A stretch of DNA of 22,104 bases from a virus: positions 1-22,104 of the IMG/VR virus record IMGVR_UViG_3300025467_000083; one strand, 5' to 3'. This document shows, piece by piece, positions 1-17,108 of this stretch. The position numbers were made by a program, and so were the translations under genes. Under the pieces are notes generated by a model. The model was not told the DNA's origin, did no database searches, and saw only the letters and a list, made by a program, of their open reading frames with translations. Position 1 is the stretch's first letter. Each line of letters opens with the position of its first letter.

Positions 1-670
1 CCCTACCAATGCCAGGGCCAAATGTCTTTCGCTCCCGCTTACCGCCGCGCTGCTTAACGTCGTAGCCACCAACTGCTAATCGTTGCATAGCTTGGGTACG
101 TTTGGCATCTGGGTTCTTGATCTTGTGACTTTCATCTACTACCATAAACTTGAAGCCCTGTTTCTCTAGATCTTCACAGTTGGCAGCTAAGGTATCATAG
201 TTGATGATATAGATATCACAACCGTGAGCAGGAGTCTTGCTATAAACTACGTTAGAATTTTTAGCAGCACGCTTTTCAGTTTGTCGCTTGCTGTAGCTCT
301 TGCCAATAATATTGATCTTGTACCGCTGGCCTGTCATTGCAACAATTTCATTGCGCCAATTCAGTTTCAACGTGTTAGGCACAACGATTAGCGCAGGCAC
401 CATTTGACACTTGTGGATGTAGGCCATTACCTGCACCGTTTTCCCAGTACCTTGTTCATCAGCCAACAAAGCTCGACCATCTTGCTTTTCAAGCCAAGCA
501 ACACCTTCAGCTTGAAAATCCTTAAGGTGGAATGCAAAGCCTGGCAGTGCTTGCACACGCGGGATACTGTCTAAGATTGCTTCAACACCAGAGTCAACCG
601 TCAGGCCGTGCTTGGTGCTCAAACGGAGTACCTTACGCACATTATCTAGTGTTGCTGGCACTGATAGCAT
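1..670 (-). CDS. SNF2-family (SF2) DNA helicase/ATPase, C-terminus cut by window edge
   Basis: This is the N-terminal 223 codons of an ATP-dependent DNA translocase read leftwards off the window. Visible motifs in order are a Q-motif-like stretch HLKDFQAEGVAWL (residues 48-60), Walker A DEQGTGKT (71-78), motif Ia ALIVVPNTLKLNW (93-105) and the Walker B box VVDESHKIKNP (177-187). A DESH box followed by KIKNP is typical of SNF2 proteins. The ATG at 670-668 has a GGAG Shine-Dalgarno with a 6-nt gap (GGAGATTGAA-ATG) and a good promoter about 20 nt upstream. Only about 47 residues precede the Q motif, so no HARP or other accessory domain is fused to it; such a domain lies in the gene ending at 1027. 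The likely role is fork regression, annealing or branch migration, as for T4 UvsW, though the SNF2 motifs set it apart from UvsW itself. A basic stretch (residues 204-216) follows motif II just before the edge; motif III and the helicase C-terminal lobe are not in view. GC is about 50%, above the structural genes. Confidence 0.9.
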   Translation of the reverse strand, partial: MLSVPATLDNVRKVLRLSTKHGLTVDSGVEAILDSIPRVQALPGFAFHLKDFQAEGVAWLEKQDGRALLADEQGTGKTVQVMAYIHKCQMVPALIVVPNTLKLNWRNEIVAMTGQRYKINIIGKSYSKRQTEKRAAKNSNVVYSKTPAHGCDIYIINYDTLAANCEDLEKQGFKFMVVDESHKIKNPDAKRTQAMQRLAVGGYDVKQRGGKRERKTFGPGIGR

Positions 671-695
671 TTCAATCTCCTTGCGTTACACGCCT

Positions 696-723
696 ATAGT
701 AGCATAATTTACACAATGGTCAA
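696..723 (-). promoter_or_regulatory. sigma70-like extended -10 promoter for the helicase gene
   Basis: On the minus strand there is TTGACC (718-723), a 16-bp spacer and TACTAT (696-701), with TGC immediately before the -10 forming an extended -10 element. The predicted start is near 689, giving a leader of about 20 nt before the helicase ATG. The same architecture occurs upstream of the HARP-like gene, which supports a shared early promoter class recognised by host polymerase. Confidence 0.6.
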
Positions 724-727
724 GAAT

Positions 728-743
728 ATAGTATGTTTACTAT
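728..743. repeat. Small inverted repeat beside the helicase promoter
   Basis: ATAGTA and TACTAT form a perfect 6-bp stem with a 4-nt TGTT loop between the end of the zinc-protein gene and the -35 box of the helicase promoter. It is AT-rich and has no U-tract, so it is a poor terminator candidate. It could be an operator or a chance palindrome. Confidence 0.25.
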
Positions 744-749
744 CAGACT

Positions 750-1043
750 TTAGTGGACTCTTTCAAATGGAATCTCATCAGCAATATCGTCATCTGTTAA
801 CAGCCCGTTAACAACCATTTCAATATATTCTGGCCAAAGACTTGTACATTCTGAACAAGTTTTGTCTGCCCACATATTGCCATCAACTGCGGCACACATT
901 AGTCTAGGAGATTCGCACACACAACACCAGCGCCGGCCATCATCAAATATTTCTCCATGATTAATAGGCATTGTTGCAAACAAATCTACTAATTCTCGTC
1001 GAAATTGAGAATCAGTTTCAATATTATCAATAGGTAAGTTCAC
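750..1043 (-). CDS. Small cysteine-rich protein, putative zinc-binding; GTG start preferred
   Basis: This 97-aa protein is not recognised as a named family. It carries C-x2-C pairs at Cys40/Cys43 and Cys63/Cys66, with extra cysteines at 41 and 50, spaced like a zinc ribbon; the C-terminal third is acidic. An ATG lies 27 nt upstream at 1070, but nothing resembling a Shine-Dalgarno precedes it. The GTG at 1043-1041 has AGGAG exactly 7 nt upstream and reduces the overlap with the preceding gene from 44 to 17 nt, so I prefer GTG. It lies between the HARP-like gene and the helicase gene with no promoter of its own in view, so it is probably co-transcribed with the former. A nucleic-acid binding or protein-interaction role in the same process is inference from cysteines and context only. 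Confidence 0.7.
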   Translation of the reverse strand: MNLPIDNIETDSQFRRELVDLFATMPINHGEIFDDGRRWCCVCESPRLMCAAVDGNMWADKTCSECTSLWPEYIEMVVNGLLTDDDIADEIPFERVH

Positions 1044-1725
1044 GTTCAAACTCCTCAAGAATCCTAGCATCTGCTACGGAAATAGTTATAGTATCGCCAG
1101 ATATAACAACATGGCGGCATTCATTTAGGGCCAACATAGTCCTACTTTCAGCTGTCTTTTCTCTTATTTTTTCTAGGTAGTCTATAAAACGCTGTTCAAC
1201 GTCAAATGCAAATCTTTCAGCCACATCCATGATAAGACTGATACTAGCTTCGTTCACTGGAACTGACCACGTACGGGTAGTATTGTCCCATGCTGCCCAA
1301 AACTTTTTATTTCGGTGTTCACCTCTTATAGATTTGATAGCCGATACTACATCAGGATCATAGCCAAATGTAAAAACCGCGGTTGTGTCACGACTGCTTA
1401 GAACCCTAGAATGTTCTAGCCGGTTGTTGAGTTGATCAACCAGTTGATTCTTAAAAATTGGACAATTGAGCCAATTGTCCATAAAATCTTTACCTCCAAG
1501 CTGACGCTGATACTTTCTCAGCAATTTCAGCGCAGCTGACGCTTGTTTATGTGTCCAAGGTTTTCCTAACATAGCTGTTTTGGCCAAACTATGACCAAAT
1601 TCTGTGTCAAACTTATTAAAACCGTTGCCATCTGTTATATAAGCACCGTCGCACATGTTAGCCAAAGAACAAATTAGCCCCTCAGCAGTGAGGCTAGAAG
1701 TGGAGTCGACACTATATGCAGACAT
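1027..1725 (-). CDS. HARP-domain-like protein, probable detached accessory subunit of the SNF2 helicase
   Basis: This 232-aa protein has two recognisable parts. Residues about 15-80 contain GAYITDGNGFNKFDTEFG (27-44), followed by a helical Q/K/R-rich stretch; from memory this resembles the N-terminal region of some phage helicases. Residues about 116-175 contain FTFGYDPDVVSAIKSI (118-133) and WDNTTRTWSVPV (146-157). This fits the HARP domain of SMARCAL1-type annealing helicases: a Tyr, then hydrophobic-x-x-hydrophobic-K, a basic gap, D-x-x-T-R-x-W and a short beta strand. HARP normally sits next to a SNF2 motor in one chain, but here it is a separate gene two genes upstream of a SNF2 motor that lacks it. 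The first in-frame ATG (1746) would fall on the predicted transcription start; the ATG at 1725 has GAGG 8 nt upstream and is preferred. The last 17 nt overlap the next gene. Confidence 0.8.
   Translation of the reverse strand: MSAYSVDSTSSLTAEGLICSLANMCDGAYITDGNGFNKFDTEFGHSLAKTAMLGKPWTHKQASAALKLLRKYQRQLGGKDFMDNWLNCPIFKNQLVDQLNNRLEHSRVLSSRDTTAVFTFGYDPDVVSAIKSIRGEHRNKKFWAAWDNTTRTWSVPVNEASISLIMDVAERFAFDVEQRFIDYLEKIREKTAESRTMLALNECRHVVISGDTITISVADARILEEFERELTY
1051..1055 (-). promoter_or_regulatory. Ribosome binding site that decides the GTG start of the zinc protein
   Basis: AGGAG on the minus strand lies 7 nt before the GTG at 1043. It is inside the end of the upstream gene, consistent with coupled translation. 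Confidence 0.6.
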
Positions 1726-5400: not shown

Positions 5401-6157
5401 GACTATAGGAAAAATAGTCTATGTAATCAATCAACAAATTATGTACAAATATCAAAGTATTTCTTCTGGTGTAATTGGCTCTCTCGTTAATGTTACATCA
5501 AATTACAAAGTAAGGATAGGTCGTAACAATTTATCATTTACATGGGTACACTATGCTCCAACAGATCAGAGAATCAATCCGGCTGTAACTAATGTTATAG
5601 ACATGTATGTGTTAACCGCATCGTATAATCAAAATCTCCGTAATTGGATAGCCACTAACGGTAGTTTGTCAACAATTCCTTTGCCCGAAACAAGTGCTCA
5701 ACTTGCAGCTACGCTTAGCAATCTTGATCAGTATGCAATGATGACAGATCAAATGGTATGGCATCCTGTGAGTTATCTATTATTGTTTGGTCAACAAGCT
5801 GCTCCGGAACTGCAGGCCAACTTTTTGGTTGTCCCCGTTCCTGGTACAATTTACACAAATAATCAAATACAAAGCCTTGTCGTTCAGGCAATCAATCAAT
5901 ATTTTGCATTAGTTAACTGGGATTTTGGAGATAGTTTTTTCTTTACGGAAATGGCAGCCTATATACACCAAAATCTAGCTACTATTGTTGGATCAATCGT
6001 AATGCGCCCAATAAGTGCGCAAGCCGTATTTGGCAATCTATTCGAAATACAATGCAATCCAGATCAAATACCAATCAGTTGTGCAACAGTTAACAATGTG
6101 CAAATAGTGCAAAGTCTAACTGACACAGTATTAGGGATAACAAACAGCAATGGCTAA
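2498..6157 (+). CDS. 6: Baseplate wedge protein gp6-like, enlarged
   Basis: At 1219 aa this is nearly twice T4 gp6 (660 aa). Residues about 15-115 are the typical gp6 N-terminus, including FPTIRTAMVNYIRLNYPEDF (36-55), ESSEFVALIDLLAYLGQSL (59-77) and DLNTRENFIETATRRDSIFK (82-101). A baseplate-J-like core lies around residues 424-495, with the recognisable run ending in RMVNGEDYNL. The C-terminus (about 1097-1215) has the expected W-D-F-G block and RPISAQAVFGNLFEIQC. The extra length includes a glycine-rich stretch around 571-666 and a small module around 790-855 (VGQIVIGNGIPAGTIV) typical of phage decoration domains. In T4, gp6 dimers link neighbouring wedges and form the inner ring of the baseplate. 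The ATG has GGA 9 nt upstream, a weak site, and the gene overlaps the next by 8 nt. Confidence 0.92.
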   Translation: MATTQQVRQSQLFAAQDWQVIYTAFTQVNFNAYDFPTIRTAMVNYIRLNYPEDFNDWIESSEFVALIDLLAYLGQSLAFRMDLNTRENFIETATRRDSIFKLARMLSYQPQRSIPASGLLQITSIITDQPVIDSDGNNLQNIQINWNDLNNPNWYEQFIIVLNATLNSTNTFGNPSQSGIVNGISTQLYEMNNTSIPTSVIPFTANVSGNSLSMELANAGFNSGTEYNLLNSGGFYEINPNPLNSWNIIYQNDGNGFASANTGFFLYFKQGNMQYQDYACDQPIANRIIDVNANNVNQTDVWVQNIDTTGLVSTQWTQVPAVVGFNIIYNSLSNNVRNIFSVISRNVAGSDQISIRFADGTFGNVPVGIIRVWYRVSNDLTYQIAPADITNQVFAFSYADNLNNIWNVAFTTNLQYTVANAQAGETDDQIALNAPQTYYTQDRMVNGEDYNLFPLSNASILKVKAVNRFYSGQSRYLDLNDPTGSYNNLNVVCTDGIFYSENDLNTNLVQNSSGINLTVVVNTKIQPLINGSLGEQIDATELENFYYYNYPRIAVPTNYIWNTITSSTKSCTGAFYVGANAVQLGSYAPVNSFLRYITQGALIKFASGAVVSVVGVIGDGTGTNLTGSTNGITVGPNAGPGAVTLSLPLASTDTPVEIIPAWNTTLSTSAVSAIAVAMAAHTTFGIRYVQNGIPDYWAVISTANLNSANTFSMAYAGDKSNTNKDNSWLILVTWNGEGWTVNSRSLRYIFESANQNQFYFDNLEKSYNPTTGSAEYDSINILGTNPNSQTTVVQTTALVLSVGSYTFTVNNAVNIAVGQIVIGNGIPAGTIVLAISSNTVTLSTAITAYGTNVLINFYPSPSLGRDYLWQIIGQQIDPDGYSNPSSVRVTMWQSLNYGVPNDPDEYNHVVNPSSNPQLLLFWVSITSSDGYQYWQPIEIPLTQIFQDVSLVPSITITVNGQTIVNPYWTIGKIVYVINQQIMYKYQSISSGVIGSLVNVTSNYKVRIGRNNLSFTWVHYAPTDQRINPAVTNVIDMYVLTASYNQNLRNWIATNGSLSTIPLPETSAQLAATLSNLDQYAMMTDQMVWHPVSYLLLFGQQAAPELQANFLVVPVPGTIYTNNQIQSLVVQAINQYFALVNWDFGDSFFFTEMAAYIHQNLATIVGSIVMRPISAQAVFGNLFEIQCNPDQIPISCATVNNVQIVQSLTDTVLGITNSNG

Positions 6158-9100
6158 CACTAATACATCATATATTAAACGACAACCAATTGAACTTCTT
6201 CCAAGCTATTTTCAAACAGATAGTTTGAAAAAGGTATTCAATGCTACAGTAAATCACCTTTTTCAACCAGAAAGTGTTGAATTTTTAGATGGATACGTGG
6301 GTCATATTCCACCCTGGTACAACTCTGCTACTGATTTTTATATACCAGAACCAGATGCTAACAGAAAAAATTATCAACTAGATCCAACGGTTGTTAGTAA
6401 TCCATATCAAAACCCAGAACTTACTAACGCAATGTTCTATGAAGATTTGATCGGCCAATTGGCATTTCAAGGAGCGTTGACCAACAACCATAACAGGCTT
6501 TTTAGCCAGGAGTATTACAGTTGGAGTCCTCCAATTGATCTTGATATGTTTGTAAATTATACAAACTATTATTGGTTACCAAACGGACCCGATGCAATTG
6601 TATTATATAATACAACTGATTTGGCTAATACAGCAGTAGGAAAAACTTCCTATTCATATGTAGGTACCGTTTTATACATATCAACTGGTACAACCGCGGT
6701 TTTTACCAGCGATTCACCGTTGGTTTTTACAACTGGTCTCAAGATTACACCCACGCATGATCTTACAACATCTTTAAACGACCAAGAATTAATCATAGGT
6801 GGTGTAGGTAGATCCATACAACTTATTAATTTTACAGACAATAGTTCTAGAAGCTGGTCAACAAATGGATGGGATCTTTTTGCTTGGGATACAGCTCCTC
6901 TAACACAACCACTATATATTACAATTGCTAGAGGTAGCCAAGATGGTAATCAATGGAGTACAGGTAACTGTTGGTTTCACATAGACATTATAAAGTTATC
7001 AAACTCATTCGTAGTTGACTTATATTCACAACAAGCATTTCGACCAATCTTGCAGTTTGATGAGAATATTGAACTGTATAATTATGGTAACAATAATAGA
7101 GGTATAATAACAGTTGTCGACACTACGAATACAGATCTTCTTGGTACTATAGTTGGACAACCTTCTTGGGAAATACAGGGAATACCGTTGCAATCTGGTA
7201 TGCGTATACTAGGCTTAGCGGATACCCATGCTAATGTAGCAGGAAAAATATTTATTGTAAGTATAACCGATACTGTGGTAAATGGACAAACAGCACCAAC
7301 GATAGAACTTACTGTTGATACATTTGGTTGTCAAGGAGCAAATGCCAATACAGGATCTCCAATACACGGCGACCGAGCTACTGTTCAGTATGGATCACTA
7401 CCGTTACTTCAAGGTGAGGCTCCTATTAATTGCCCTGCAAACATATATTATAACAACGGAGTATGGTCAGCAACAGGTCAACAACAGATTGGATTAGAAC
7501 CGCCATTGTTTCAATTGTACGATGTTAATGGCAATTCACTGAGCGATCCAAGTGTATATCCAAACAGCAGCTTTGCGGGTAGTCGCGTGTTCTCCTATGC
7601 AACCGATCCTACACAACCTGTAGACCCATACATAGGACAATCACTTGAGCTAGATCAGTTTGGCGATTGGATATTTGACAATAATCTCGCAACAGACGTT
7701 GTAACATACGTAGTAAACTCAACTAGAGTTCCATATTACGGGTACCTTTTCTCAAAAATTGGAACTGCATCAACCCCAACATATATAGATTCTTGGTACA
7801 CAGCTCCGCAGCTAAGTAGACAATATATTATAAACGAATTTGTTGTAACAACCCCTACATCGTCATTCACAATAGATCAAACTCCAGCTATCCAAGAACC
7901 AAACACATTACCTCCAATATTTGTCTATATTAACAAGAATCAAAGCGAAACGTTACTGACGAATGGTGTTGATTACACCGTGAACGGTACAGTTGTAACG
8001 CTAACTGTGCCTGCACAGGCTGGCAGTATTATTGAAGTTGCATCATGGAATCCGGTAGCCCCATTGACGCTAACAGGATATTATCAGATACCATTGAATA
8101 TCAGTGCCAATCCTAACAATTTACCGATAACAACCGTAAGTCGCAGTCAATTCTTACAACAATTTACCGAAATTATCGAAAATCAAACTGGTATCACTGG
8201 CCCTGCGCTTGGTAATAATAATTACAGAGATACCGCACAACAGCGCGGCCTAGGTTTAAGTATTCTCCAACATAGAGCTCCAATGTTAAAGTTAAGCCTT
8301 CTTAACTCGGTGCCTTTGTCAAATATTAACCTAACCACTGCACCTACAGATCCTATGCAAGCTATGCAGTATGCTGAAAATAGCTACACAAGGTTTTACA
8401 ATAGATTTTTACGAGCATTGTTTTCTATTGCTACACAGCAAGGATTCAGTGCTAGCAGTAATGAATCTGTGTGTGATCCTTATAATACAGCATTGTGGAT
8501 AAGCACTGCATTAACACAAATCAATGTTGGTAAAACTCTGGCGTCTCCGTGGGCCAACACAGGATACGGTGGAGTTCCAGGATCGTATGGCCTAACACAA
8601 TCTACAAACCCATTATATATTCCGGCAACCGCTACTCGTCTTGGCATAACATCTGCCTTCTATCCAATTGTATATTATGACACAGCATATATCACCCCAT
8701 TGTTAACGATACAAACACACGATGGTGCAAGAATCGTTATGACTGACAATCAAGGTTCACAACTAGGTACAATACTTCACAATCAAAGCTCAACATCTAA
8801 CCCAGAACAACTATCAAATCCTATCGCAGCAGCTTGGTTACAGTTTGAACTTAATATGTTCAACAATTTACCTCCAACTTATTCCGACTCTCAAGCTGAG
8901 TTAGTATTTGATGTAACTACATACGCCCCGGGTCGTTGGAGATCATCTGATTACACTGCACAAGAATATTTAAATTTACAGCGAGCATCTTTTGATAAAT
9001 GGGTAATCAATAGTCAAGTTGATTACACCTCTAATACAGGCTATAATGCACAAGACCAATTTAGTTTTAATTATAGTACGGTATTCGACCCGCAAGGCAA

Positions 9101-12100
9101 TCCAATTCCTGGACACTGGCAAGGAATATATCGTTGGTTCTACGACACAGATCGGCCACATTTATGCCCATGGGAGATGCTAGGATTTTCGCAAGAGCCG
9201 CCGTGGTGGACATCACAGTATGGTGCTGCGCCATACACAAATGGCAATACCGCCATGTGGCAGGATCTAACAAGTGGCACTATACAACAAGGACCCAGAG
9301 CAGGGACCTACGCAGTTTGGGCACGCCCGGGTCTTATGAGTTGTATACCAGTTGATAGCCAAGGTAATTTACTGCCCCCAGTAGAGGCTAGATGTGCGGT
9401 ATCGCTACCAACTGTGCTCTCTGCACAAGCTGCATGGGTATTTGGTGACGGTGCTCCAGTTGAGTCTGCATGGGTGCATTCTCAGTATTATCCGTTTGTT
9501 GAAGCAATGACAGGTTATCTGATGAAACCTGCTGCATTTATCGAATACACTTGGGATAGTTTACGAACTGAAGAAATTTACACAGATACTACAGAAAGTC
9601 AATGGATTTATACAGATACTAACTCGCGCAGAAGCAGTAATCAGTTCTACATCAATAGAGAATCTCCATCATCGTTAGTTACTGGAGTTATGGTACCAAA
9701 CGAATCAAACCTAAGTTACTTTGCTAGTGCAGGGTTTCAGGTATGGATAACTGAATATGTAGTATCTCAGGGTCTAAATGTTACTAATTATATTGGTAGT
9801 ATGATACGCGGCGGAAATGTGCAGTTGGCACATAGAATGGCAGGATATGTAAATGCATCTAATTTTAGAGGCGTAGTTGATAGCTTTGGACAACTTGGTT
9901 ATAACAGTCAAATTATACCTACTGAAAATATAAACGTATATCTATATCGTAGTACAAGCACCGGAATTTATGTTTATAGCGGAGTAATTGTAGAAAAGAC
10001 CAGTAAAGGTTGGCTGATATACGGCTATGATCCAGTTAGTCCATTTTTTACGGTTATACCGTCTAATACATCTGGTCCAAAAAATAATATTGTAGTTGGA
10101 AATGAACAGGTAACTGAATATACCACTGGTCTAAACGATACAACAAAGAACGTGCCATATAACACAATAATGACTACTTATCAACAGGTTTATGATTTTC
10201 TTATCAGTTATGGTAGATGGCTTACAAGTCAAGGATGGGTGTTTGATCAATATAATACTAATGTAGGGACAATATTAGACTGGGCACAGAGTGCTAAAGA
10301 ATATCTATTATGGGCACAAGGCTCTTGGGCCAACGGTACCATACTTGCTCTTAGTCCCAGTGCTAATTCTGTTCAATTCTATCAAAGTGTAGGAATGATA
10401 CAATATGTTAATGGTATAGTGTCAGGCACCTATCCTGTAGTAGATAGAGCCGGTAACCCAATTCAAGCGCAAAATATCAATGTATTACGCGACGCCGGAA
10501 GCATTACAGTTCAACCAAATAATTCTCAAGGTGTGTATGGTCTGCGATTGTTTACAACAACAATGGAACATGCAGTTTTCTTTGATAATTTAACTGAATT
10601 TGGCGATGTTGTATACGAGCCGTTGTATAATTTACAGCAACAACGTATAAAAATATATACCTACAGAGCTAATGGCTGGGATGGCACAATAGATGCCCCC
10701 GGTTACATTATAATTCAAGGTAACACAACAGTAAATGGTCAAACCATTGTTTCTAATACTTGGACAATGACCAATAACTTTGAAAAAACTGCTAGCGATT
10801 TTACAAGATATTTCAACATAGACGAACCTAAAAATTATGAAGTAATACAATATGGTGGTGTTAATACAGTTACCTCTACTACCACATTAGGTTCAATAGA
10901 TAATCAAAACATATCAAATCTATCACGGCATTTAATTGCATATCAGCCAAGAAATTACCTGCAGAATTTACTGCTAGACGATTCTGTAGAATTCCAGTTC
11001 TATCAAGGATTTATAAGGCAAAAGGGGACACTGGCATCAGTTAATGCACTGTTAAGAAGTTCAACTGTAATACCTACGTCAAGTACATTTAACTATTATG
11101 ACGAATGGATGATTCGTATTGGTGCATATGGCGCAACCGCTCTAAATATCGATTTGGAATTTATATTACCACAAAGTTTAATCAATAATGACCCACAATG
11201 GATACGATTCTTCAGTGCCACTAGCAATAATCCGTATTCTAATGTGTTTGATATTGTACCAAACGATCCATTAATTATAACAGCGCCTCCTACATATTCA
11301 ACAAATATATTTGGTCTAAGACAAACATATGCCCCCAATCCAGCTACAGACGTTCAAACAGCAGGATACGTGCAATTAGGGGAAACTGATTGGTATGCAA
11401 CAAATACTAACGAATTGTTGTCATTATACCTAACACAGAGCACTACAAGTAATCCTTTAAAAAGTTCTGATACTGTTTGGCAGTTTATCACCAATAATGG
11501 ATCTTGGATGGTATGGATCCTAGCAGAAACAACTACACAGATCTCTTATACTATACAAAGTCCTGTCTTTGGTGAGCCAACTACTATAGTAACAACAGAA
11601 CCGCACGGGTTACTGAACGGTGATATTTGTGTAATTTTTGGCGTATCAAATGTAACTGAAATAAATGATACATATATAATAGACGGTGTTACACCAACTA
11701 CCTTTAACATTGCGCTGAGTACGTTTTCATCTGGTTCAGGCGGTACAATATGGGTATACCGTCCTATGAGATTTTCAAACATATTTGATCGAGATACCAG
11801 TGCCCCACCGGGCGGATATGTAAACGGTAATTTAGTTTATGTAGATCAAGGTAACGTAGTATCAAATGCTTGGACAGTATATCTATATAACAATGGACAA
11901 TTTATACCGTTTAGACAACAACCATTGCAGGTTAATCCTAGCCTGTTACAATCTAGTCAAATATATAATCTAGTTACAGGTGTAAATCTTGCTAATGTAG
12001 ATTATTGGGATCCAGTTAAAGGAAAAATTCCCGGCCAGGCACAACAGGAAATAAATTATTCAACAGATTTTGATCCTGCTGTTTACAATAGTGGCGATAC

Positions 12101-15100
12101 TAGCGGATATTTGGTAAATCCAACCCTAGCCTGGAGTAGTGCGCAGGTAGGACAAGTATGGTGGGATTTATCACAGGTAAGGTACATAGATTACGAGCAA
12201 GGTGACGAGTCATATCGTTTGCGTACCTGGGGACAAATTGCACCTGGCACAGACGTTGTTGTTTACGAGTGGGTACAGAGCAGCATACCTCCAACCGATT
12301 GGGCGACAGCCGTAGCTAAAGGCGCGCCGATACTGGTAGGTAATAATCTTCTAGTACCATCTGGATTTGTAAAAGATCCGTATAATTGGTCTCAAATTGT
12401 AGAATACAGCGCTCAAAATATTCCTACCACTTATTACTATTTTTGGGTAGGTAATAGCGGTATGCCTCCTTCCGGCATATGGCGATCACTTGAAACATTG
12501 TCTATTTCAAATTTTATAAAAAATCCCAGCCTAACTAACACCCCTTGGTATGCAGCTATTAGCACAAACAGCATAATATTAGGCAATGCTAAATCGTTGC
12601 TAAATGGTAACAGAGTTGCACTCAAGATTAATTACACATCTCAAATAAACGACTCCAACATTTATAGTCAATGGGAGCTAATTCGCGAAGGAGATCCAGA
12701 TAGTCCTATTAATCCAATAGTTTGGTCAAAACTCAAGGCAAGTTTAGTAACTTTTGATGGATTAGGCAACGACGTACCAGACTATCACCTTAACGTATAT
12801 AACAAGTATGGTACATTAATTAGGCCACGTCAGACTTGGTTTGTGGATAGAGAAGGGGCTAGCAAGTTATTTGTAAATACATTTAATAGCTTAATTGCTG
12901 CAAGTACCACTCCGATCGTGTATGATGCTACCAAGACAGGATGGTTACTCTATTTCAACAAGGCAGAATCTATACCGTCTCAGTACACCACTACCTCAAC
13001 TGGCACTGTTGTAAACTGGAACTATCAGGTTTCTAATCTAGCACAGAGAGACGGTTTAATTGGAGCAATTGTTCCGGGTGAGCTAATTTTAGTTGATGCA
13101 ACTGTTACAACAAAAAATCTTTGGACTATATGGGAATATACTCCAACTGGTAATGAAATCTGGAGTCTTACTCAACAACAAGCATATAATACAGCAAACT
13201 TTTGGCAATATGTAAATTGGTATGCAGCAGGCTATAGCAGCTCAGATGTTCCAACAGCAACTGTTGCTACAATAGGTGATTTAGATGCACTATCTAATCC
13301 AACTGCCGGTCAATTAGTTGAAGTTTCAAATGGTGGTGACGGCAATTATCAATGGTATGCGTATATAGGTGCTGTTTGGAAACAAGTAGCACAACAAAAT
13401 GGTAGTATAGAAGTACTACCAAGCGTGTATCAATGGGCTGAAACTTTTGGAGGATTTGATGGTTCACCGTTTGATGGTGCAGGAACATCATTAGTTTTTG
13501 ATCCAAACCCAAGTTTTGATCAAACTGCTGCGGTTGATTTTGCTAACATAATCGATGGCATATATGCCGCTATATATCCGGGCCCAGCATCAATTGAACT
13601 TAATACGTTGTTCTTTGCAATGACAAACTACGTTGTGTCCGAGCAATTACAAGCCGATTGGATATTTAAAACCAGTAACATGGTCTTTACAGGTTTTAAT
13701 CAAACACTCCAACAGACACCATTATTAGCTGTAGACAACACCCAAAGCATATTATCATATATTAATGAAGCTAAACCGTATCATGCGCAGATACAAGAAT
13801 ATATCAACGGATATTCGACATTTGATCAAGGTAATATGTCAGTGGTTGATTTTGATGTGCCGTATTCTTACCTAACTGCAAACACTCCATTGTCCGCAGT
13901 TTCACCTAGTAACATAGTAGTAAGTTCATCAAATTTAAAAGGTATTGAGTATTACAATACCTACAATGCATGGTACCAAAATTATCAACCTGCTGTCAAC
14001 AAAACTGCACAGGCATACATAGATCCGGCTCTTGTACGACATCTTGCTACTAAAATTGTGTTTGATAGAATTAGTACCCAATCGTTGGTTATAGGCTGGG
14101 GGTCAAGTTGGTCGGTGTTTGGTTGGGACAACGAATCAGCCGGAATAAATTACGGAGCACAGACTCGCATCGAACAATTTTACACTCCATCTGCTGGTAT
14201 GATACCAAATATTCTTTCTGATCTCATGCAAGGCGTAGTTTACAAAGGACAGACTATTGGAAACTTAGGATTTAAAGCAAATCCTGGTTGGGATTTAGGC
14301 CCCTGGGGTGGATTGCTTGGGTGGGATGCAAATGCAGAGGTAGTTAATGCATATCTCGATCAAATTATACAAGGTGGACAAATACCTAACTACGACGTCG
14401 CAATAGGCGACGGAGTATCTGTTACTTTTCCATTAATAAAAGGCGCACAAAATCCTAATAATCTAGTAGTTTGGTCTGATAGTGACTTACGAATGTATGG
14501 AGTTGATTGGATTATTCCAACCTTTGCTCTCAGTGCATATGTAATAGATGGAGGTGTTGGATATTCTGTTGGTGATCAAATAAATGTTGTGGCAGGTGTT
14601 GGCATAATTCCTGTTAGACTGCAAGTTGTTGCAGTTCAAAACGGTAGCATTACATCTGTTACTATTTTGGGCAAAGGATCATATAACACCGTAACTCCGG
14701 GGCCATATCAAACAGTTTATCCTCCTCTATATCCGGGATTGGGTTCAAATGCAATTATTGGTATAAATTGGGATTGCAGCTATATACAATTCTTTAATCC
14801 TCCGGCCAGCAGCGCAACTCCAAACGTGTATATACTCTATGTAGGTACTACCTTTGAGCCTGCATCAGATGCAGAAAGTGACTCCATTTATGATGGGTAT
14901 CAATTCGTTGAACCATTTATCGACGATGGCCACCCAGAAGAGCTGTATCCGATGCGGGTACTTGATTGTTTAATGATGGATACATATTCGCTTAAGGTTG
15001 GTGGTAGACCAATAGTAAGTTCTAGGGTTTATCTAACAGATGGGGTGACTGATCAATATGATTTGTTAATTACACCTCAAAGCGATCAAGCTGTTATGGT

Positions 15101-17108
15101 TTATCTAAATAATTTGCCATTAACAGTTGGAATTGGAGGCGATGTAGTAATCAATTATACTACCAATCGGTTGGTTTTTATTACTACTCCGGTTGCTAAT
15201 CAAACGCTGTATATAACATCAATTGGATTTGGTGGCGCTAGTAGATCAGTTGCTCAAGCTTTTGTAGTTACAGGTGGCTCAGGGTATGCCATAGGAGATA
15301 CTATTAGTCTAGCAGCAGGTATGATGTTATCAACACCTATTGTGAAAGTTATAGATGTAGACAGCAATGGGGCTGTTATTTCAGTTTCTGTAACATCTGC
15401 TGGATTATATCCGCAGCTACCGGTTCAACCAGTAGTGCAGTCTGCTACATCAAATCACGGCTCAGGCGCAACATTTAATTTGTTATTCACAGATAATCTA
15501 CAATTATATACATACACAGGTGATGGTGTAGAAACCGATTATACTTTTCCAAATTTCAAATTTAATGTTACAGGAATAATGGTTGTAGTAAATGGTATAT
15601 TACAAGTTGCAGGTATAGGTAACGATTATTCATTCCTGTCTACTGGCATTCGGTTTAACGTTGCACCAGATTACGGGTCAACCATTATTATTGCAACATT
15701 TGATAATGATCAATTTTCTGCAGTAAAAGAGACTGTGATTACAGTATCTGATCCATCTGTGTTGACATATAGTCTTGCACAAGGTGCTGTTAGTACATCG
15801 CCGCAATATCAAACCACAATGGTTAGAAAGAATGGTAATTTAATGTCGCCGCCGTTGATGCAGATATTTGTAGGCAACGGCTCTACAACTAGTTTTAATA
15901 TTACTATTGATTTATCCGGAGCAATCTCTGGCTATCCTCAAGTGTATGTAAATGACATTTTATATAACACAGGATATACTATATCTAGCAATATTTTAAC
16001 TTTCACCAACCCCCCGATACTTGATGCGAACATTACAGTATTGTGTGTTACTTCTACTACAGAATATACGCTTTTTGATAATGTTATAAACTTTAATAAT
16101 AACATTATGTTGAACGATTTATTAGTGGTTACAACTTACAGTCAAGATATTGATTATGAATTCCGGACAGAAGAATTCGTAGAGAATATAAGTGGACAAT
16201 ATCAATTAACCAGTTGGCCTTATAATACATCTACAATACAAGTTTGGCGTGACGGCATATTACAAACTCCGCAATTAGACTATACACTACAGCCTGCATC
16301 ATACACAATAAGTTTGCAAACACCTGCTTATAGTGGATGGGGTGCGGTATGGAGTATTGAAGGTTGGGAACATGTTGGAAGTATAATAATCACATATATG
16401 CTTGGGTTGCCTGAGGCTCCGGCTATTTCATGGAGAACTACAACTGGTTGGGATGCTACTCTTTCAACATCAATCGATATAAAGAGAGAAACATCGCTGC
16501 TTAATAATGTGTATAACTTTAGTAACACTATAGAGATAGCCGATTTTACTGTTATTACAGCTCCTCAATTTGGTTCACCTGGATTGATCTATATTGACGC
16601 CGAGCTGATTAGTTTTACTGAGATACAGGTTGCTCCAACTATTGACAATCCTAATCGCGCATTTTTAGCTGGTATTGCTAGAGATAGACTGGGAACCAGC
16701 GGAGCCCCATTAACGCTGTATAACACTCTTTGGTACAACGGCGATGGCTCAAATATCTACTTTGCGACCGAATCTGCAACGCTGCCAATATCAACTTCAG
16801 TTTTTGTAGCAGGTGTTATTAAAGTTCAAACGGTTGACTATAACATTGTTAATAATCCCCCTGGACATGTAGGCAATTATGTAGTGTTTACTACTGCACC
16901 GGCAGTTGGAGTAAAAAATGTTCAAATAACAGCCCTAAATCAAATCAGCTATAATACTCAAGTTAGTCATATTAAGGGGGCAAATGTTATAGATGCAGGT
17001 ACAACTGTGCAGATACCCGGAGGGTATTCTTGGGTGCCAACACCAAATGGTCTGCAATATAGCTCTAGTGAACTAGCAATATTCCTTTTAGAGCATTCAG
17101 GTAGCTGA
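6150..17108 (+). CDS. Giant baseplate/tail structural protein (3652 aa) in the gp7 position
   Basis: This single frame spans half the window and starts inside the end of gene 6 (8-nt overlap). The N-terminus (residues about 10-140) has LPSYFQTDSLKKVF (17-30) and a 'FLDGYVG ... DFY-PEP ... YYSWSPPID ... NYYWLPNGP' series; I recall this layout in very large structural proteins of marine T4-like phages. A Trp/Pro-rich block at about 984-1140 (PHLCPWEMLGFS, AWVFGDGAPVESAW) looks like a conserved core. Around residues 2470-2580 lie FAMTNYVVSEQLQADWIFKT and SYINEAKPYH, also typical. The C-terminal third carries repeated small beta modules. Position after gp6 suggests a greatly extended gp7-like wedge protein, or a gp7/gp8 fusion; T4 gp7 is only 1032 aa. 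No signal peptide or membrane segment was seen. Structural role is secure; exact gp7 homology is inference. Confidence 0.85.
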   Translation: MANTNTSYIKRQPIELLPSYFQTDSLKKVFNATVNHLFQPESVEFLDGYVGHIPPWYNSATDFYIPEPDANRKNYQLDPTVVSNPYQNPELTNAMFYEDLIGQLAFQGALTNNHNRLFSQEYYSWSPPIDLDMFVNYTNYYWLPNGPDAIVLYNTTDLANTAVGKTSYSYVGTVLYISTGTTAVFTSDSPLVFTTGLKITPTHDLTTSLNDQELIIGGVGRSIQLINFTDNSSRSWSTNGWDLFAWDTAPLTQPLYITIARGSQDGNQWSTGNCWFHIDIIKLSNSFVVDLYSQQAFRPILQFDENIELYNYGNNNRGIITVVDTTNTDLLGTIVGQPSWEIQGIPLQSGMRILGLADTHANVAGKIFIVSITDTVVNGQTAPTIELTVDTFGCQGANANTGSPIHGDRATVQYGSLPLLQGEAPINCPANIYYNNGVWSATGQQQIGLEPPLFQLYDVNGNSLSDPSVYPNSSFAGSRVFSYATDPTQPVDPYIGQSLELDQFGDWIFDNNLATDVVTYVVNSTRVPYYGYLFSKIGTASTPTYIDSWYTAPQLSRQYIINEFVVTTPTSSFTIDQTPAIQEPNTLPPIFVYINKNQSETLLTNGVDYTVNGTVVTLTVPAQAGSIIEVASWNPVAPLTLTGYYQIPLNISANPNNLPITTVSRSQFLQQFTEIIENQTGITGPALGNNNYRDTAQQRGLGLSILQHRAPMLKLSLLNSVPLSNINLTTAPTDPMQAMQYAENSYTRFYNRFLRALFSIATQQGFSASSNESVCDPYNTALWISTALTQINVGKTLASPWANTGYGGVPGSYGLTQSTNPLYIPATATRLGITSAFYPIVYYDTAYITPLLTIQTHDGARIVMTDNQGSQLGTILHNQSSTSNPEQLSNPIAAAWLQFELNMFNNLPPTYSDSQAELVFDVTTYAPGRWRSSDYTAQEYLNLQRASFDKWVINSQVDYTSNTGYNAQDQFSFNYSTVFDPQGNPIPGHWQGIYRWFYDTDRPHLCPWEMLGFSQEPPWWTSQYGAAPYTNGNTAMWQDLTSGTIQQGPRAGTYAVWARPGLMSCIPVDSQGNLLPPVEARCAVSLPTVLSAQAAWVFGDGAPVESAWVHSQYYPFVEAMTGYLMKPAAFIEYTWDSLRTEEIYTDTTESQWIYTDTNSRRSSNQFYINRESPSSLVTGVMVPNESNLSYFASAGFQVWITEYVVSQGLNVTNYIGSMIRGGNVQLAHRMAGYVNASNFRGVVDSFGQLGYNSQIIPTENINVYLYRSTSTGIYVYSGVIVEKTSKGWLIYGYDPVSPFFTVIPSNTSGPKNNIVVGNEQVTEYTTGLNDTTKNVPYNTIMTTYQQVYDFLISYGRWLTSQGWVFDQYNTNVGTILDWAQSAKEYLLWAQGSWANGTILALSPSANSVQFYQSVGMIQYVNGIVSGTYPVVDRAGNPIQAQNINVLRDAGSITVQPNNSQGVYGLRLFTTTMEHAVFFDNLTEFGDVVYEPLYNLQQQRIKIYTYRANGWDGTIDAPGYIIIQGNTTVNGQTIVSNTWTMTNNFEKTASDFTRYFNIDEPKNYEVIQYGGVNTVTSTTTLGSIDNQNISNLSRHLIAYQPRNYLQNLLLDDSVEFQFYQGFIRQKGTLASVNALLRSSTVIPTSSTFNYYDEWMIRIGAYGATALNIDLEFILPQSLINNDPQWIRFFSATSNNPYSNVFDIVPNDPLIITAPPTYSTNIFGLRQTYAPNPATDVQTAGYVQLGETDWYATNTNELLSLYLTQSTTSNPLKSSDTVWQFITNNGSWMVWILAETTTQISYTIQSPVFGEPTTIVTTEPHGLLNGDICVIFGVSNVTEINDTYIIDGVTPTTFNIALSTFSSGSGGTIWVYRPMRFSNIFDRDTSAPPGGYVNGNLVYVDQGNVVSNAWTVYLYNNGQFIPFRQQPLQVNPSLLQSSQIYNLVTGVNLANVDYWDPVKGKIPGQAQQEINYSTDFDPAVYNSGDTSGYLVNPTLAWSSAQVGQVWWDLSQVRYIDYEQGDESYRLRTWGQIAPGTDVVVYEWVQSSIPPTDWATAVAKGAPILVGNNLLVPSGFVKDPYNWSQIVEYSAQNIPTTYYYFWVGNSGMPPSGIWRSLETLSISNFIKNPSLTNTPWYAAISTNSIILGNAKSLLNGNRVALKINYTSQINDSNIYSQWELIREGDPDSPINPIVWSKLKASLVTFDGLGNDVPDYHLNVYNKYGTLIRPRQTWFVDREGASKLFVNTFNSLIAASTTPIVYDATKTGWLLYFNKAESIPSQYTTTSTGTVVNWNYQVSNLAQRDGLIGAIVPGELILVDATVTTKNLWTIWEYTPTGNEIWSLTQQQAYNTANFWQYVNWYAAGYSSSDVPTATVATIGDLDALSNPTAGQLVEVSNGGDGNYQWYAYIGAVWKQVAQQNGSIEVLPSVYQWAETFGGFDGSPFDGAGTSLVFDPNPSFDQTAAVDFANIIDGIYAAIYPGPASIELNTLFFAMTNYVVSEQLQADWIFKTSNMVFTGFNQTLQQTPLLAVDNTQSILSYINEAKPYHAQIQEYINGYSTFDQGNMSVVDFDVPYSYLTANTPLSAVSPSNIVVSSSNLKGIEYYNTYNAWYQNYQPAVNKTAQAYIDPALVRHLATKIVFDRISTQSLVIGWGSSWSVFGWDNESAGINYGAQTRIEQFYTPSAGMIPNILSDLMQGVVYKGQTIGNLGFKANPGWDLGPWGGLLGWDANAEVVNAYLDQIIQGGQIPNYDVAIGDGVSVTFPLIKGAQNPNNLVVWSDSDLRMYGVDWIIPTFALSAYVIDGGVGYSVGDQINVVAGVGIIPVRLQVVAVQNGSITSVTILGKGSYNTVTPGPYQTVYPPLYPGLGSNAIIGINWDCSYIQFFNPPASSATPNVYILYVGTTFEPASDAESDSIYDGYQFVEPFIDDGHPEELYPMRVLDCLMMDTYSLKVGGRPIVSSRVYLTDGVTDQYDLLITPQSDQAVMVYLNNLPLTVGIGGDVVINYTTNRLVFITTPVANQTLYITSIGFGGASRSVAQAFVVTGGSGYAIGDTISLAAGMMLSTPIVKVIDVDSNGAVISVSVTSAGLYPQLPVQPVVQSATSNHGSGATFNLLFTDNLQLYTYTGDGVETDYTFPNFKFNVTGIMVVVNGILQVAGIGNDYSFLSTGIRFNVAPDYGSTIIIATFDNDQFSAVKETVITVSDPSVLTYSLAQGAVSTSPQYQTTMVRKNGNLMSPPLMQIFVGNGSTTSFNITIDLSGAISGYPQVYVNDILYNTGYTISSNILTFTNPPILDANITVLCVTSTTEYTLFDNVINFNNNIMLNDLLVVTTYSQDIDYEFRTEEFVENISGQYQLTSWPYNTSTIQVWRDGILQTPQLDYTLQPASYTISLQTPAYSGWGAVWSIEGWEHVGSIIITYMLGLPEAPAISWRTTTGWDATLSTSIDIKRETSLLNNVYNFSNTIEIADFTVITAPQFGSPGLIYIDAELISFTEIQVAPTIDNPNRAFLAGIARDRLGTSGAPLTLYNTLWYNGDGSNIYFATESATLPISTSVFVAGVIKVQTVDYNIVNNPPGHVGNYVVFTTAPAVGVKNVQITALNQISYNTQVSHIKGANVIDAGTTVQIPGGYSWVPTPNGLQYSSSELAIFLLEHSGS
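14406..16935 (+). repeat. Divergent tandem beta-module array in the C-terminus of the giant protein
   Basis: At least six copies share a pattern of G-D/N-G near the start, an aromatic-ended strand, a 'V-x-V-N/D-G/D' strand, 'D-Y' and a final 'I-x-F ... P ... I-x-I' hairpin. Approximate residues are 2753-2788, 2960-3028, 3120-3184, 3238-3302, 3347-3417 and 3528-3596; a lone copy lies at 588-634. Two G-G-x-G-Y-x-x-G-D loops (near 2799 and 3042) are interleaved. The copies differ too much at DNA level to be a simple nucleotide repeat, so they are old duplications. Confidence 0.6.

Follow-up and report, generated by a model that had tools for sequence, protein, structure and literature searches.

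A HARP-family protein and an SNF2 motor encoded by neighbouring genes of uncultured phages: a candidate two-subunit junction-remodelling translocase

Background

SNF2 motors translocate on duplex DNA and serve many different roles, and HARP domains are known from fork repair. In the eukaryotic annealing helicases SMARCAL1 and ZRANB3, a HARP-family recognition domain works with an SNF2 motor within one chain; SMARCAL1 has two HARP domains ahead of its motor, and it has been reported that the HARP domains dictate annealing and that the second of them suffices (PMC3409536). In phages, SF2 branch-migration enzymes are represented by T4 UvsW and T5 D10. UvsW carries out branch migration and helps to reactivate stalled forks in recombination-dependent replication (PMC5180179), a small, separate helical protein, UvsW.1, has been proposed as its partner (PMC7824862, PMC5180179), and other Snf2 helicases have been proposed as UvsW replacements in jumbo phages (PMC7824862). 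TFIIH offers a case in which a small domain sits in a chain of its own, apart from the SF2 motor: XPB works there with p52/p8, and the p52 clutch, which is structurally XPB-NTD-like, docks on the motor and controls its ATPase (PMC6422496, PMC7708078).

The DNA analysed here (the window) is a 22.1-kb piece of an uncultivated virus, with three minus-strand genes at its left end that encode a 232-aa protein, a zinc-like protein and an SNF2 motor. The 232-aa protein consists of a helical module (H), a HARP-family domain (X) and a C-terminal tail. The pair formed by this protein and the motor resembles SMARCAL1 and ZRANB3 in that a HARP-family recognition domain would work with an SNF2 motor, and differs from them in being encoded by two genes, in having the H module, in showing neither their RPA-binding nor their zinc-finger regions, and in that its annealing activity is putative. 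With UvsW and D10 it would share branch migration, but its motor is SNF2/Rad54-like and its partner bears a HARP-family recognition domain and not merely a helical bundle. As in TFIIH, a small domain lies in a separate chain from the motor, on which it would dock; however, TFIIH is a eukaryotic multi-subunit complex, and the similarity of fold that ties it to the phage domain is weak (Z ~4.4). The helicases of Thermus phages MN1 and phiLo and of Rhodothermus phage RM378 also combine an SNF2 motor with H, but in a single chain in which H is C-terminal and a DUF5710-like N-terminus takes the place of a clear HARP domain. Bacterial and phage single-chain HARP-SNF2 proteins (L249, L252, L253-L264) have HARP followed directly by the motor, and their segment from the HARP tryptophan to the motor matches the start of the two-gene motor; unlike the pair, they are unsplit and most are without H. 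In an incomplete literature search, we found no description of a two-gene HARP-SNF2 enzyme or of HARP domains in phages. Judged from their sequences, all parts of the pair belong to known domain families, and the division into two genes is what appears to be new.

Results

As the earlier note on this DNA had described, the 232-aa product has a GYDPDVVSAIK...TRTWSVPV block and no ATPase motif, and two genes downstream lies an SNF2 motor with DEQGTGKT and DESH (Table 1). The motor scores E 2.9e-22 against PF00176, motifs I and II included, and a short stretch of about 50 residues precedes Q53 of its Q motif (LKDFQ). A good Shine-Dalgarno sequence, GAGGA, stands upstream of the ATG of the gene for the 232-aa protein. 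The 106-aa protein with two CxxC pairs probably starts at GTG 1043. Because the window's motor is cut by the edge, the question raised previously, whether a HARP copy is present at the motor C-terminus, was answered through complete relatives (518-548 aa): these have PF00176 and Helicase_C, their chains end soon after motif VI, and a C-terminal HARP copy is absent. Among solved structures, the Sulfolobus SWI2/SNF2 ATPase is nearest to them in sequence.

Table 1. Features of the three minus-strand genes at the left end of the window
Feature	Position	Strand	Basis or remark
Gene HX, 232-aa partner protein (H module, HARP-family domain, tail)	1027..1725	-	ORF 1725-1030; position includes the stop
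H module, helical, residues ~14-78 of the 232-aa protein	1492..1686	-	Profile and sequence matches; elsewhere fused to SNF2 motors
HARP-family domain X, residues ~106-175	1201..1410	-	Predicted b-b-a-b-b-b-b-a, pLDDT ~95; profile links
8-residue insertion EHRNKKFW, residues 136-143	1297..1320	-	Before the WD strand of the HARP domain; typical of the two-gene family
C-terminal tail of the 232-aa protein, residues ~195-232	1030..1143	-	Predicted b-b-a; candidate first HARP half, weak
106-aa CxxC...CxxC (zinc-like) protein	750..1070	-	ORF call; overlaps the HX gene
Shine-Dalgarno AAGGAG ahead of the motor ATG 670	677..682	-	Backs the motor start
SNF2 motor, first 223 residues	2..670	-	Open at the window edge; complete relatives 518-548 aa
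Motor head, residues 1-38	557..670	-	Matches second half of HARP domain (profile-profile)
Walker A DEQGTGKT, motor residues 71-78	437..460	-	ORF translation
Walker B DESH, motor residues 179-182	125..136	-	ORF translation

Rightward of the three genes, the plus strand carries tail genes, including gp25-like and gp6-like baseplate wedge genes, and among isolates, jumbo myophages, for example Phosso, Atu_ph07 and PA5oct, have the nearest relatives of these baseplate genes. Neither of the two isolates that were looked at, Phosso and Paride, has an annotated helicase at the corresponding baseplate spot; in Sinorhizobium phage Phosso, an annotated exonuclease on the opposite strand (L335:4618-5235) is found where the window has the two-gene pair. 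Immediately after the gp6-like gene, a single ORF of 3652 aa (6150-17108 of the window) probably encodes a giant structural protein of the virion, like those of Phosso and Paride. Among 50,697 phage isolate records, none contained the full-length 232-aa family; two helicases of Thermus phages were the sole matches, and these in H alone. No relative turned up when bacterial genomes were scanned with the family, and direct look-ups of the 232-aa protein in Pfam, PHROGs, NCBIfam and PADLOC gave nothing useful. The two-gene arrangement is that of uncultured, mostly giant phages. An assembly artefact was considered and rejected, because many samples contribute to the 22 clusters that the H-X proteins form at 95% identity, and because a Shine-Dalgarno site precedes each of the two genes in the window.

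The assignment of X to the HARP family did not come from Pfam directly, since no HARP (PF07443) match was obtained for the window's 232-aa protein, and PF07443 was not found in the records containing L001 and L002. Few bacteria have Pfam HARP, for which the gathering cut-off is 25 bits: in two phyla, it was found in 3 of 247 and 2 of 249 genomes. In the single-chain relatives it is the main non-motor match and falls exactly at the position of X, at 14.5-18 bits and thus under the cut-off (E 0.0085 for L081, 0.022 for L072, 0.027 for L076 and 0.0022 for L257); the region between H and motor of L164 also has a weak match (E 0.015). As an independent reference we used a profile of five bacterial HARP domains from unrelated genomes, with E-values normalised to one million sequences. 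This profile matched the window protein at E 0.005, two-gene proteins down to 1.8e-5, L072 at 2e-8 and L081 at 5e-7, and when it was compared with 346 ORFs of like length, the best 25 all came from the 232-aa protein's family. In the reverse direction, a phage X profile reached L251, a protein with HARP above the Pfam cut-off, at E 5.6e-7 on the same normalisation, while shuffled HARP domains gave E 210-360 at best against the phage profiles. A profile made of two-gene X domains alone reached L251 no better than at E 0.25, so that the single-chain forms provide the best route to HARP. When the two-gene family was compared, profile against profile, with a reference free of two-gene sequences, the probability was 97.8% (E 1.1e-12). 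The proposal that the block is a HARP domain thus stands on reciprocal profiles and on the profile-profile match, although Pfam itself misses it, and at the level of these profiles X is a member of the HARP superfamily with eight extra residues.

The AlphaFold model of X superimposed on the SMARCAL1 HARP domain 4o66 with a Z of 3.5 (2.5 A, 52 of 67 residues, 23% identity), on XPB 5tnu with 4.0 (2.2 A, 53 residues) and on TFIIH p52 with up to 4.4; taken alone, Z values of this size are low, and we read them as no more than consistent with the HARP identity. A Foldseek search with the model yielded nothing at E<=0.001. In bacterial genomes, HARP is also found fused to tyrosine recombinases (PF00589; L251:1465-2628 and L248:1426-2592), in one of them (L251) above the Pfam cut-off. 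This suggests that HARP is a portable module for branched DNA.

The second recognizable part of the 232-aa protein, H, matches the C-terminal region of the single-chain helicases of Thermus phages MN1 and phiLo with 40-42% identity, and also that of the Rhodothermus phage RM378 helicase. As to a kinship of H with UvsW.1, a search of PDB sequences with the H profile found no related entry. A wide search found H nearly always together with SNF2 motors: it yielded 61 distinct chains with the order motor-H, 35 two-gene-type H-X proteins, 6 chains of the form H-X-motor or H-X-X-motor, L164 as an additional H-motor chain, and H on its own in four cases, two of them truncated at contig ends. A DUF5710-like + H protein of 230 aa (L152:3623-4312) lies on an 80.7-kb contig, and an 89-aa protein consisting of H alone (L157:3935-4201) on a 210-kb contig, both contigs being without an SNF2 match; these possibly represent an independent split. 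The DUF5710-like N-termini of the Thermus-type helicases were considered as an equivalent of X, but the profiles gave weak hints only and the two were kept apart.

H-X proteins fall into at least 22 clusters at 95% identity and 8 at 60%; clusters and not loci are the counting unit, several locus identifiers denoting one and the same contig. At every locus that is not ended by a contig edge, the motor gene lies 0.06-1.25 kb from the H-X gene, either on the same strand, 60-1220 nt downstream, or on the opposite strand, as in L037-L049, at a distance of 299-1187 nt. Only L016, L069 and L070 have no motor, and in all three a contig end is close by (the L069 record, of 17.6 kb, contains no SNF2). 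Gene order, strand and intervening genes vary, and the linkage to the motor is kept. For instance, a RimK ATP-grasp gene (PF08443, 3e-46) stands in L007/L008 where the window has the zinc-like gene, a 198-aa protein of no assigned family lies between the two genes in L010, and most loci from L051 to L068 have no gene in between, just a gap of 60-99 nt. The zinc-like protein is therefore not constant and is incidental to the core. In L047:1-1512, the motor frame is split into three overlapping ORFs; it is intact in the sister contig L048.

Whereas SMARCAL1 has HARP and motor in one chain, the window and every two-gene locus encode them separately. Elsewhere the same modules occur in the same order in single chains: H-X-motor in L072-L077 and L257, most fused chains of this form having a single X, and H-X-X-motor, with two HARP domains, in L081/L082. 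Because of these fused chains (a Rosetta-stone pattern), the two genes can be viewed as one enzyme in two parts, and the claim that the domains of a one-chain enzyme are here split across two genes is borne out by the two-gene loci and the fused forms together. The domain identities, the two-gene state, the close linkage and the same-order fusions are all evident at the sequence level. The model of a 722-aa fused protein (pLDDT 73, below 50 in the second HARP region) did not have the quality needed to read contacts between domains.

Where HARP and SNF2 share one chain, the motor follows immediately on the second half of HARP, which consists of the strand after the conserved tryptophan, a helix and an exit helix. 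The start of the two-gene motor, MLSVPATLDNVRKVLRLSTKHGLTVD, aligns gap-free with WSVPVNEASISLIMDVAERFAFDVE of the partner's own HARP domain, with residue 5 of the motor head at column 55 of the family's HARP alignment. In profile-profile comparisons with three references, the motor head matched HARP with a probability of 21-44%, always on the second half, and 0 of 200 column shuffles reached the observed score; the head windows were also the best among 167 windows along the motor. On these grounds it is quite likely that the motor head is half a HARP domain. The motor is therefore not wholly HARP-free, owing to this segment at its start.

The evidence for the tail of the 232-aa protein is of another degree. 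Its secondary structure in the model, predicted with low confidence (E206-209, E212-215, H220-231), has the spacing of the first half of HARP (E108-112, E115-119, H124-131), and in relatives it reads ADPxILxEF, compared with YDPxLVxAIK of HARP. In the right register, 9 and 5 of 200 shuffles reached its score against the first HARP half with two references, and 97 of 200 did so with the third, the family's own HARP. Joined tail and head profiles matched HARP no more strongly than the head alone, and the two halves together miss the central WD..K.W strand region. We therefore regard the tail as the other half of HARP only tentatively. Since the head corresponds to the second half and the tail may correspond to the first, the gene break probably falls inside a second HARP domain, and an ancestor like L081, with two HARP domains and broken within the second, explains both tail and head. 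The earlier reading of the gene pair was largely right at its core, for the HARP block and for the split over two genes, but it overlooked the H module and the half-HARP segment at the motor start.

Discussion

We propose, with a probability of roughly two in three, that the 232-aa protein and the SNF2 motor are the two subunits of one fork- or junction-remodelling translocase. In this enzyme, the 232-aa subunit, bearing the recognition modules H and X, would recognise branched DNA and gate the motor, and the other subunit would pump along duplex DNA; acting jointly, the two would bring strands back into pairing and shift branch points by fork regression and branch migration, a role like that of UvsW in T4. 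The recognition of branched DNA and the gating are derived from the functions of the families, the role of UvsW, the TFIIH precedent and the RecA-like genes on two of four large contigs that were checked. We also infer the physical contact of the two proteins, their DNA target and their activity in annealing and fork regression. The pair probably originated by fission of a single-chain H-HARP-HARP-SNF2 enzyme, and the HARP halves, one closing the 232-aa protein and the other opening the motor, may form a docking site, which suggests split-domain complementation as the mode of docking. That a HARP domain was cut at the gene level, and that its halves reassemble without the WD..K.W hairpin and dock the subunits, turning a recognition domain into an interface, is a conjecture to which we give somewhat less than an even chance.

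Much the same standing, if marginally better, belongs to the view that head and tail are ordinary linkers, in which case the break would lie between domains, a second HARP would never have been present, and the enzyme would still have two subunits. The weak match of the tail, the lack of the central HARP strands at both ends and the single X of most fused H-X-motor chains agree with it. However, linkers would not be expected to give a head score that none of 200 column shuffles reached, with three references and in the correct register relative to the motor, or a tail with the predicted b-b-a spacing of the first HARP half, and two HARP domains do occur in L081/L082. Alternatively, the 232-aa protein, although of common ancestry with helicase domains, could be an independent DNA-binding protein, such as a junction binder or loader, which forms no stable complex with the motor, the gene linkage reflecting a shared pathway alone. 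This would accommodate the differing intervening genes, the motors on the opposite strand in L037-L049 and the contigs of L152 and L157, on which H occurs without a motor, and the fusion of HARP to tyrosine recombinases indicates that the module can serve other enzymes. We nevertheless consider it unlikely, in view of the same-order fused forms, a linkage that is kept in all but three edge-cut loci, and a motor head that resembles half of the partner's own domain type.

A function outside replication and recombination was also considered, in which the pair would act in phage-host conflict, either in counter-defence or as a phage-borne defence helicase. The best match of the motor in the defence library PADLOC is ZorD (E 3e-47), and the DpdE profile matches at E 2e-35. 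These matches cover just the motor core common to SNF2 proteins: against the Zorya, Dpd and DISARM helicases, the SNF2 core alone matches, with no full-length match and scores far below the NCBIfam cut-offs. Furthermore, the 232-aa and zinc-like proteins have no PADLOC match at all, and fork repair is a known setting of HARP domains, so that a conflict role is very improbable. The two-subunit translocase is thus the reading that we retain.

A split inside a domain would be its surprising part. Truncation is the only way to part the recognition domain of SMARCAL1 or ZRANB3 from its motor, whereas in a natural two-subunit version each half can be added, removed or titrated, and the effect of HARP on the motor, whether targeting, activation or gating, becomes directly testable. 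The pair also suggests what replaces UvsW in some jumbo phages, and it shows that the same modules, H, HARP and motor, have been reshuffled repeatedly in phages.

Two minor observations concern the single-chain helicases. In the motor-H helicases of L078, L079 and L084, a cysteine segment with the look of a zinc finger (CSVC...PGD...H..C) is present instead of the DUF5710-like N-terminus. The SNF2-H helicase of a Binatia MAG (L168:2085-5597) contains an insertion with LAGLIDADG and weak Hint matches, which is probably an intein.
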